A stretch of 53,924 bases of DNA from an uncultured bacterium (GTDB taxonomy: Bacteria > Cyanobacteriota > Vampirovibrionia > Gastranaerophilales > Gastranaerophilaceae). The stretch is from NCBI GenBank assembly GCA_948433295.1, contig CAOJDT010000003.1, forward strand, positions 1 to 53,924. The letters run 5' to 3'. A program made the translations under genes and the position numbers. The notes under the pieces were generated by a model. It made no database searches, had not been told where the DNA came from, and saw only the letters and a list, made by a program, of their open reading frames with translations. This document shows positions 4,194 through 7,165 of this stretch, piece after piece; within the stretch, counting starts at the first letter, position 1; each line of letters begins with the position of its first letter.

Positions 4194-4433
4194 ATGCTAG
4201 ATTTATACTATTCGGAAACTTGTCCTTATTGCAAGAAAGTTCTTTCATTTCTGAAAGAAAACGATATAAAATTTAATCCTAAAGAGGTGTCAGACCCTAA
4301 AAATTACGAAAAGTTAATTGAAATAGGAAAAATGGCACAGGTTCCGTTTCTGGTAGATACGGACAATGATGAAAACATGTACGAATCAGACGTTATCATA
4401 GATTACATTAGAAAGATAAATAATTTAGGATAG
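4194..4433 (+). CDS. glutaredoxin-like thiol oxidoreductase
   Basis: A 79-residue single thioredoxin-fold protein with the dithiol motif CPYC near residues 10-13 (SETCPYCKKVL), the cis-Pro segment QVPFLVDT, and DVIIDYI near the end. It should reduce protein or glutathione-type disulfides in the cytosol. It starts ten bases after AGGAGA and lies 11 bases before the hybrid-cluster-like gene, so the two are almost certainly one transcript. Confidence 0.9.
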   Translation: MLDLYYSETCPYCKKVLSFLKENDIKFNPKEVSDPKNYEKLIEIGKMAQVPFLVDTDNDENMYESDVIIDYIRKINNLG

Positions 4434-4444
4434 GAAAATATAAA

Positions 4445-6043
4445 ATGTTTTACAATTATTACAGAGATGAAGGTTCAGAATACAATGAATGCACCGCCCG
4501 CGGAGCCTGTTCAATAACGCCGAAAATGTCTTCGCTTCAGGAAGTTTTAATAATTTTTTTAAGACAAATATCTTTTTATGCACTTATGCTTAACAAAATG
4601 GAAGAGGATATTTCGCAAATAAGCGATATGGTAGTTGAAAGCCTTGCCGGTTTAATTTCAACTACGGATTACACGGATGAGCAGCTTCTGGGGCTTGTCG
4701 GAAAGCAGTATGCGCTTCTTGTCAAGACAAAGCGTCAATACCTTCAAATGTGTAAAAATAAAGACATTTCCTGTAAAGAAATAAAATTCGGTCTTGAGGT
4801 TACTCCTCAAACTACTTTAACGGAAATAATTTCTCAGGGCGAAAAACTTGTAATAGATAAATTTAATCAAATGTCAGCTTCACAAAGAAATCTGTATGAA
4901 ATTCTTCTTGCCGTAATTAAATCTGTATGTGCAAATATTATAAGCTTGAAAGATAATAATAATCAAAATGATGAAAATGCAAAAACAGTTGTTTTAAAAG
5001 GACTAGATTTGCTTAACCATTCTAAATTTTCTGAATCGCGCGTCAAATCTAAAATTAAAGAACTTGTAAAGGCAGACGAAAATCTTCTTAAAGAAATAGG
5101 CGATTTTCAAAGAAAGATATTCGGACAAATAAAAGAAGTAAAAGTTTCTCATTCAACTGAAATCGGCAAAGCCATTCTTGTCGCAGGAGGAGGTCTCAGT
5201 GAGCTCTATCATCTTCTGGAAGCCACAGAAAATAAAGAAGTGGATGTTTACACCCATGGCGATCTTTTGATTGCTCATGCTTTTGAAAATTTTTCAAAAT
5301 TTAAAAATCTTAAAGGACATTACGGCAGCTGTTCTGAAAAATGTATTCTGGATTTTGCGACATTCCCGGGTGCAATTCTTTTAACACGTAATTCATCACA
5401 AAATATTGAATACCTCTATCGCGGCAGACTTTTTACAACTGAAAAATTCAAGCCTCAGGGTGTTGTTCAGATTGTAAATAATGATTTTAGAAAAGTTATA
5501 AAATCCGCACTTGAAGCAAAAGGTTTTGCTAAAGGTCAAAAAAGAGATTTTGAAAATGTCGGTTTTGATACGGAAATTCTTAAAGGTGAATTAAACCGAA
5601 TTTTCGAAAAATTCACTAATAATGAAATTGAAAAACTCGTGATTATAGGTATAGCAAACCATTCACGTCAACAGGAAAATTATTTTAAAACTCTGAGCAG
5701 ACATTTGCCTGAAAAAACTCTGGTCATAAGTTTTTCATACAATTTGGATTATAAAGATACACTCACAATTAATGTAGGTAACAATGTTGCAATTGTGTAC
5801 GAAATTCTTACGTATTTGTTTGGAATGATTCCGAAATCATCCGACAGAGTTTCAATTTTTGTTACAAAATGTGATGCAGGGTCAATTTCAAAGATTATTG
5901 CACTTAAAGAAAATGGTGCAAAAAATGTTTACCTTTCAAACTGTGCGCCGAATGTAATAAATCCGTCTGTTCAAGCTACTCTTGAAGACGCATACGGAAT
6001 AAAAACGACAGCTGACCCTGAACATGACGCAAAAAAACTATGA
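4445..6043 (+). CDS. hybrid cluster protein (Hcp) homologue lacking the metal-cluster ligands
   Basis: The 532-residue chain follows Hcp/hydroxylamine reductase along its length: VDVYTHGDLL, GHYGS, FATFPGAILLTRNS, YRGRLFTT and NGAKNVYLSNCAP match conserved Hcp segments. Aligned by eye to E. coli Hcp, the hybrid-cluster ligands are all replaced: His249 to Gly, Glu273 to Asp, Cys317 to Ser, later Cys residues to Ala404, Ser431 and Asn447, and Glu/Lys near the end to Asp477 and Gly479. Only two of the four N-terminal cubane cysteines remain (C16, C22; positions 3 and 6 are Tyr). It is therefore unlikely to reduce NO or hydroxylamine by the Hcp mechanism. It is intact, full-length and co-transcribed with glutaredoxin, which suggests a retained non-redox or altered role. 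Confidence 0.8.
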   Translation: MFYNYYRDEGSEYNECTARGACSITPKMSSLQEVLIIFLRQISFYALMLNKMEEDISQISDMVVESLAGLISTTDYTDEQLLGLVGKQYALLVKTKRQYLQMCKNKDISCKEIKFGLEVTPQTTLTEIISQGEKLVIDKFNQMSASQRNLYEILLAVIKSVCANIISLKDNNNQNDENAKTVVLKGLDLLNHSKFSESRVKSKIKELVKADENLLKEIGDFQRKIFGQIKEVKVSHSTEIGKAILVAGGGLSELYHLLEATENKEVDVYTHGDLLIAHAFENFSKFKNLKGHYGSCSEKCILDFATFPGAILLTRNSSQNIEYLYRGRLFTTEKFKPQGVVQIVNNDFRKVIKSALEAKGFAKGQKRDFENVGFDTEILKGELNRIFEKFTNNEIEKLVIIGIANHSRQQENYFKTLSRHLPEKTLVISFSYNLDYKDTLTINVGNNVAIVYEILTYLFGMIPKSSDRVSIFVTKCDAGSISKIIALKENGAKNVYLSNCAPNVINPSVQATLEDAYGIKTTADPEHDAKKL

Positions 6044-7165
6044 TTTTTCAAATAATTCGGTGTTGTTCAAAAGACCCGAAAAAGCTAGAAATGCATAGTT
6101 TATATATGGTGTAATTAAATAATTTTCAGAAATACCCTGAATTAAGCATATAATCATTATTATCAGGAACGGAATATCTTTTTTAAGGTATGCCTTTCTG
6201 ATAATAAAAGCAAATCCCGCCAAAAACAATCCTAAGGTAAAGATTCCGTATTGCACCAGTAATGTTCCGTACAAGTTATGCAATACCATTAAATCTTTAT
6301 CAATTTTGACTTGGGTTCCGAAGACGTTTACAGGTAATGTTGCCATGCAATAACATAAATTTCTAAATCTGTAAGAAACAAGTTCATCAATCCATAATGC
6401 TAAACGAGAGGCATTACAATACATTTGAGTAATAATAAATGAAATTGCAGGACAAAATATTAAAGAAGCTACTGCTGATACATTAGCAACTTTTAACGCA
6501 TTCTTATTTGACATTTTTTGAGCAATATTTGCGGCTGCCATCAACAAAATAATAAGAAGCGCTGTTGTTCTTGAATTTGTAAAGAAAAACGTTAAACACA
6601 AAACCGAAAACATAAATAAATTATCGATGCTTCTTATATTTTTCCATCTTATGTATACAAGTGCCATGCAAATTTGAAGAAGTGACGCCGCAAATATGTT
6701 CGGGTTGACAAATCCGTAGTAATATCGCTGAATCATTGTCGTAGGTCTCAGTATCATTTCATTATCGCCGTATCCTAAACCTACAAGTATAACAATTACT
6801 GACATCATTACCGTAGTTACGGCTAATGCTATTTTGGATATTTTATTAAAGCTTACCGGAGGAATTGCAAGTAAATAAAACCACAGCCAACATAAATGAT
6901 AATTATCAATACTATGGCAAACAGTCAACACTCCGCAAGTTAATAAAAGATGAAGTATAAACTTTTTAACGGTATAAACTTTATAAACAAATAAATTAAA
7001 AATAATACAAATATAGCATATAATTTTAAATAAAAATTTTTCAATATCCTGGTATTTAAATAAATCAAAAGCCCATACACTTACATATCCAAAGCAGAAT
7101 ATTGCAAAAACTGCATATAGAATTATAAATAAGTATATGGGTTTGATTTTATTTAAAGTATTCAT
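6038..7165 (-). CDS. O-antigen ligase/polymerase-like membrane protein
   Basis: A 375-residue protein with about ten hydrophobic segments. The central FFTNSRTTALLIILLMAA resembles the Wzy_C/WaaL signature with its conserved Arg. A larger loop follows (about 240-285, with IDKDLMVLHNLYGTL), as expected for the periplasmic loop of glycan ligases and polymerases. It probably joins or polymerises a lipid-linked glycan at the inner membrane. It overlaps the convergent Hcp-like gene by six bases. O-antigen ligase, polymerase and protein O-oligosaccharyltransferase cannot be separated from sequence alone. Confidence 0.72.
   Translation of the reverse strand: MNTLNKIKPIYLFIILYAVFAIFCFGYVSVWAFDLFKYQDIEKFLFKIICYICIIFNLFVYKVYTVKKFILHLLLTCGVLTVCHSIDNYHLCWLWFYLLAIPPVSFNKISKIALAVTTVMMSVIVILVGLGYGDNEMILRPTTMIQRYYYGFVNPNIFAASLLQICMALVYIRWKNIRSIDNLFMFSVLCLTFFFTNSRTTALLIILLMAAANIAQKMSNKNALKVANVSAVASLIFCPAISFIITQMYCNASRLALWIDELVSYRFRNLCYCMATLPVNVFGTQVKIDKDLMVLHNLYGTLLVQYGIFTLGLFLAGFAFIIRKAYLKKDIPFLIIMIICLIQGISENYLITPYINYAFLAFSGLLNNTELFEKS

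Follow-up and report, generated by a model that had tools for sequence, protein, structure and literature searches.

A conserved Hcp-fold protein without hybrid-cluster ligands, linked to a glutaredoxin gene

What can a full-length relative of the hybrid cluster protein (Hcp) be doing once the residues that hold the hybrid cluster are gone? The question is raised by one gene of the window, i.e., the whole stretch of 53,924 nucleotides analyzed here, in which a first-pass annotation had seen a conserved, cofactor-free Hcp scaffold coupled to a glutaredoxin. We use the name HcpX for the window protein together with its degenerate relatives. The two genes concerned are as follows.

4194..4433, + strand: glutaredoxin (Grx) of 79 aa, CPYC, GST_N_3/Glutaredoxin, 11 bp upstream of HcpX
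4445..6043, + strand: HcpX, Hcp-fold protein of 532 aa with hybrid-cluster ligands lost (ORF, profile, structure, and alignment evidence)

The frame at 4445-6043 (+) is intact over 532 codons, as had been claimed, with no internal stops. The NCBIfam profile TIGR01703 matches residues 11 to 531 (E 7e-60), although the score of 202.9 bits lies below the curated equivalog cut-off of 360.8, whereas Pfam Prismane (PF03063) is matched above its gathering score (E 4e-30, 105 bits versus 27). A phmmer search of HcpX against solved structures returned nothing other than Hcps. An AlphaFold model was built from 36 natural relatives (mean pLDDT of 85.7, pTM of 0.86), and Foldseek placed it at a TM of 0.81 to 0.83 to the solved Hcps of D. 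vulgaris and E. coli (1e1d, 7de4); the values against CODHs were well under these, at only ca. 0.5. The overlay on Hcp that the first-pass annotation had proposed thus confirms, at the level of a predicted structure, that HcpX keeps the full-length Hcp fold. Model confidence is weak at the N terminus of both HcpX and the canonical control L101 (33 and 35 in HcpX versus 49 and 52 in L101 for the first two blocks), and since the control is also poor there, we dropped it as a sign of a lost cubane.

Ligand positions were mapped by aligning HcpX jointly with D. vulgaris Hcp (1e2u), whose hybrid-cluster ligands we take to be H244, E268, C312, C406, C434, C459, and E494. All seven positions are invariant in the canonical Hcps aligned, with 27 out of 27 reading H-E-C-C-C-C-E. 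The corresponding residues of the window protein, together with its N-terminal cysteines and C103, are listed below.

4490..4492, + strand: C16, equivalent to Hcp cubane C15, kept (alignment)
4508..4510, + strand: C22, equivalent to Hcp cubane C21, kept (alignment)
4751..4753, + strand: C103, cysteine in 88% of HcpX and 22% of canonical Hcps
5189..5191, + strand: G249, at ligand H244 (alignment)
5261..5263, + strand: D273, at ligand E268, stays acidic; Asn, Ser, and others in relatives (alignment)
5393..5395, + strand: S317, at ligand C312 (alignment)
5654..5656, + strand: A404, at persulfide ligand C406 (alignment)
5738..5740, + strand: Y432, at ligand C434 (alignment)
5777..5779, + strand: G445, at ligand C459, alignment loose
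5873..5875, + strand: D477, at ligand E494, Asp in 127/164 relatives (alignment)

Most of the replacements read by eye in the first-pass annotation stand (Gly249, Asp273, Ser317, Ala404, Asp477, and Gly479, the last one at K496 of D. vulgaris Hcp), but Ser431 and Asn447 were off by one or two residues, Y432 and G445 being the aligned ones. Residues 430 to 446 align loosely and the replacements at C434 and C459 are approximate, but the lack of any cysteine in this stretch is firm. Two of the seven replacements, Glu to Asp, keep the acidic character. The full cysteine set of the window protein (16, 22, 103, 110, 162, 296, 300, 476, and 500) contains none in residues 301 to 475, which cover the former places of C406, C434, and C459, so realignment cannot restore the lost cysteine ligands. 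We also considered that ligands might be kept at shifted positions, the first alternative that had been raised against the original reading, and found none within 3 alignment columns. At the N terminus, C3 and C6 of the cubane site have no counterpart and only C16 and C22 remain of the four, as had been noticed before; no cysteine precedes residue 16 in 151 of the 164 HcpX relatives. Judged from its sequence, HcpX is unable to function as an Hcp. Other residues of the pocket might still hold an iron cluster, hybrid-type or otherwise, with HcpX remaining an NO or hydroxylamine reductase, since D477 and D273 are still acidic and pocket columns 71, 271, 317, 447, and 448 still co-vary. However, beyond the cysteine-free stretch, the His, the Lys, and all the pocket cysteines are gone, and the pocket residues vary by subclade (Ser, Glu, Phe, or Ala at 317), which makes a retained cluster very improbable.

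The loss is common to the whole family clade and is not a local oddity. A match was present in 13 of 13 genomes of the window's genus, in 255 of the 264 sampled from its family (our count), and in 273 of the 286 sampled from the order, these genomes being mostly drafts. Gene style and genome sizes suggest a non-photosynthetic cyanobacterium of the Gastranaerophilales type as the source. The alignment set comprised 164 distinct HcpX relatives, 27 canonical Hcps, and five intermediate forms; none of the seven ligands is retained in 132/164 HcpX, one in 25, and the maximum is three. Outside the order, the copies inspected within the class and phylum were canonical except for L271 (two columns gapped and one different). 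A scan of public genomes matched only one relative because the peptide patterns used were strict. We also considered, and set aside, that HcpX assists a canonical Hcp present in the same cell: the window's genome has no other match, and a canonical class III copy is found in only about one-third of the family's genomes (our count).

In a maximum-likelihood tree made without the ligand and cysteine columns, all the degenerate proteins group in a single clade (SH-aLRT 99) nested within the class I Hcps of the order, with the window's family as one subclade (SH-aLRT 100). This is the tree that had been proposed as a check on whether the loss was shared. Two sister families carry Hcps with partial loss. 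L098 keeps all four cubane cysteines and only three hybrid-cluster ligands (E, C, and C); L107 and L221 keep two ligands; L224 and L225 also keep two but have lost the N-terminal cysteines. The sets of remaining ligands differ among these five proteins, and the C476/C500 pair described below is absent from them. Such partial-loss forms, with L098 having an intact cubane and part of its ligands gone, suggest that hybrid-cluster ligand loss began before cubane loss. Within several genera of the family, there is also a shorter HcpX branch of ca. 474 to 511 aa (L097, L099, L100, L102, L104, L105, L108, L220, L229, L233, and L235), in which the C434-bearing segment is deleted and C476/C500 are nearly always kept. 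One genome (G076) carries this shorter form as a second gene (L272), and at L062 (429-3688) there is a tandem HcpX pair with a 4-base overlap, the sole tandem seen.

Catalytic residue loss by itself would fit a decaying gene, a pseudogene in progress. Yet the frames are open, full length, and of constant length in nearly all the family's genomes, new invariant residues have appeared, and pairwise dN/dS between close HcpX pairs is 0.02 to 0.19, in the same range as canonical pairs. HcpX is therefore under purifying selection, the relaxed selection that could have undone the original reading is not seen, and gene decay is refuted by these ratios and the intact frames; we give it practically no weight.

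What the clade has gained is a pair of cysteines near the vacated site.

5870..5872, + strand: new C476, equivalent to Y493 in Hcp, beside ligand E494 (alignment, conservation)
5942..5944, + strand: new C500, equivalent to T517 in Hcp (alignment, conservation)

Neither of them occurs in the canonical Hcps aligned here. Among the 164 HcpX, 157 have both and seven have neither, and a single one is never found. On the tree, C476 and C500 were each lost five times independently, and every loss was shared; taken alone, five co-loss events give a sign-test p of 0.06. The mutual information between the two columns is high, not top (rank 135 of 138,601 column pairs), as both hardly vary, and the co-loss count is thus better evidence for the pairing. 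In the AlphaFold model, each cysteine sits three residues past one of two consecutive strands (E469-473 and E494-497), and for this reason they are expected to be a spatially close pair. C16 and C22 form another unit (both in 156, neither in five, C16 alone in two) that is independent of the first, with 149 proteins having both units and seven and seven having one.

Four near-invariant cysteines could also mean a rebuilt metal site, in which C16, C22, C476, and C500 would coordinate a newly formed [4Fe-4S], [2Fe-2S], or zinc site near the old cubane, loaded or protected by the glutaredoxin. Some of the partner glutaredoxins have a CPYS site, and glutaredoxins of the monothiol kind can serve as [2Fe-2S] binders or carriers. 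There is also a structural parallel: in the Hcp of M. marburgensis, losing one cubane cysteine abolishes the [4Fe-4S] cluster, and the loops of Glu434 and Trp461 enter the space of the cluster domain (PMC10502027). The Glu434 loop is the counterpart of the C476 loop and, if a constant offset is assumed, Trp461 falls near C500, so that the four HcpX cysteines may lie near each other. Against this, the two pairs are lost separately: seven proteins have only C16/C22, and seven others have C476/C500 without a full C16/C22. Were all four cysteines to make up one site, they should be lost together, which weakens such a site as the sole explanation; we consider a rebuilt site unlikely. The term cofactor-free must be narrowed all the same. 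It applies to the hybrid-cluster site, but freedom from every metal does not follow, since these same cysteines could form a site.

The other acquisition is the glutaredoxin. In the window, its ATG is preceded by AAGGAG at ca. 8 bases, it matches Pfam GST_N_3 (E 3e-14) and Glutaredoxin (E 2e-7), and it has the motifs CPYC, QVPF, and YES; it is probably in the same operon as HcpX. The coupling noticed in the first-pass annotation extends well beyond the window. A glutaredoxin gene lies directly upstream of HcpX in 118 of the 160 loci with enough upstream sequence, and in 112 of them it is GST_N_3-like, with a gap of mostly 0 to 15 bp. The usual gene block is wecB (opposite strand), grx, hcpX, and rpsG/rpsL (opposite strand). 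At six loci from other genera, a classical GrxC is found beside HcpX, among acpP/fabF, yebC, or argF/argG-like neighbors. No canonical or intermediate Hcp copy has a glutaredoxin neighbor. Two Grx types, in unrelated contexts and never beside canonical copies, argue for a functional linkage over inherited synteny.

This context bears on a further explanation, that HcpX is a pseudoenzyme, a regulatory or structural scaffold that binds a protein or ligand, with C476/C500 as a stabilizing disulfide or packing residues and the glutaredoxin as an ordinary neighbor. The whole catalytic site has been lost with the fold retained, non-cysteine residues are conserved (e.g., H278, D303, F304, P308, and G309), and within the conserved wecB block Grx adjacency could be inherited. 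Nonetheless, the presence of two Grx types beside HcpX in unrelated contexts, and of none beside canonical copies, speaks for a functional linkage, and no other consistently codirectional gene offers itself as a candidate binding partner. We consider such a scaffold unlikely as well.

Two other features of the window can be mentioned here. Adjoining HcpX on the opposite strand (6038-7165, -), there is a membrane protein of 375 aa with no Pfam match, possibly of the O-antigen ligase or polymerase type. Farther upstream, at 1828-2219, intergenic direct repeats of 46 to 59 nt (copies at 1828, 1945, 2104, 2110, and 2174) are up to 92% alike. The ORF listed at 1920-2972 begins inside these repeats, so that the pseudopilin-like gene behind them probably starts later.

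We propose that HcpX is a repurposed Hcp without the hybrid cluster that carries out thiol or glutathione chemistry with its glutaredoxin, a reading to which we would give an even chance. A class I Hcp ancestor would have lost the hybrid cluster and half of the cubane site in the ancestry of the family and been kept as a working protein. C476 and C500, which would occupy equivalent places behind two consecutive parallel strands at the edge of the former metal cavity, would act as a dithiol/disulfide unit and C16/C22 as a second dithiol unit, both reset by the co-encoded glutaredoxin and glutathione through the N-terminal cysteine of Grx. Thus equipped, HcpX might serve this anaerobe as a thiol-redox switch or thiol oxidoreductase in oxidative or nitrosative stress, a role that would replace the metal-based reduction of NO or hydroxylamine. 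The partner glutaredoxin suits a monothiol, glutathione-type reaction: the position of its second active-site cysteine shows no fewer than 12 changes over the tree (CPYC to CPYS or CPFG; e.g., in L040, L036, L038, L058, and L060), and the first is constant. The window's genome encodes GshA together with a homologue of GshB that scores under the family cut-off. Among the roles suggested earlier, thiol chemistry draws support from the C476/C500 pair and the repeated Grx linkage, whereas NO sensing found no specific support. Some observations run against the thiol model. Roughly one HcpX locus in four lacks a Grx neighbor, and an anaerobe has a reducing cytoplasm. HcpX proteins lacking C476/C500 or C16/C22 also persist, some with Grx retained, which means that the protein can do without either pair. 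The wider claim, that an Fe-S-O metalloenzyme became a metal-free thiol protein with a new cysteine pair at the vacated site and a glutaredoxin of different types linked twice, we place a little short of even. If true, it would provide a stepwise natural record of thiol chemistry replacing a metal site, with partial-loss forms still alive in the sister families.

Compared to class I Hcp (the prismane protein; D. vulgaris 1e1d/1e2u; TIGR01703, PF03063), HcpX has the same fold (TM of 0.81) and domain order, shares the N-terminal CX5C half of the cubane site and the YTHG(D/E) and FPG segments, and branches inside class I. It differs in lacking the seven hybrid-cluster ligands and two cubane cysteines, in scoring far below the TIGR01703 cut-off, and in adding C476/C500 and a glutaredoxin operon partner. 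Class III Hcp (M. marburgensis 7e0l) belongs to the same superfamily and co-occurs with HcpX in some genomes, e.g., L059; unlike HcpX, it has all the ligands, is ca. 100 residues shorter in its middle region, stands without a Grx neighbor, and in L015 and L059 is preceded by an Rrf2-like regulator. The Ni,Fe-CODHs and CODH-V of C. hydrogenoformans are also of the same superfamily, although the TM to CODHs is only ca. 0.5. CODH-V sets a precedent, its active site being altered and its CODH activity lost (PMC10502027, PMC13056359), but, unlike HcpX, it still carries an Fe-S-O cluster. The partner glutaredoxin, with its CPYC/CPYS site, QVPF cis-proline loop, and ES motif like those of glutathione-binding members, is ordinary by itself and unusual only through its tie to an Hcp relative. 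According to papers on Hcp classes, structures, and genome context (PMC10502027, PMC10210160, and PMC13056359), every class conserves the ligands, and the passages searched in these sources contain no mention of a cluster-free conserved branch. A search of open-access papers found no report of such a descendant of Hcp, nor one that links Hcp to this lineage or to an operon with a glutaredoxin, which is not proof of novelty. HcpX departs from Hcps in three tested defining features (the hybrid-cluster ligands, the N-terminal cysteines, and the TIGR01703 cut-off), and for this reason we do not file it as an Hcp; judged by its residues, it appears to represent a new branch within the Prismane superfamily, one that lacks the hybrid-cluster site. 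Homology calls of "hydroxylamine reductase" or Prismane are therefore probably wrong on the chemistry in these bacteria, and a gene carried by nearly every genome of the family now has, together with its partner, a concrete testable hypothesis. Because canonical Hcps coexist in the lineage with forms of partial and of complete loss, one can test directly in which order the ligands went and how a new function was gained.
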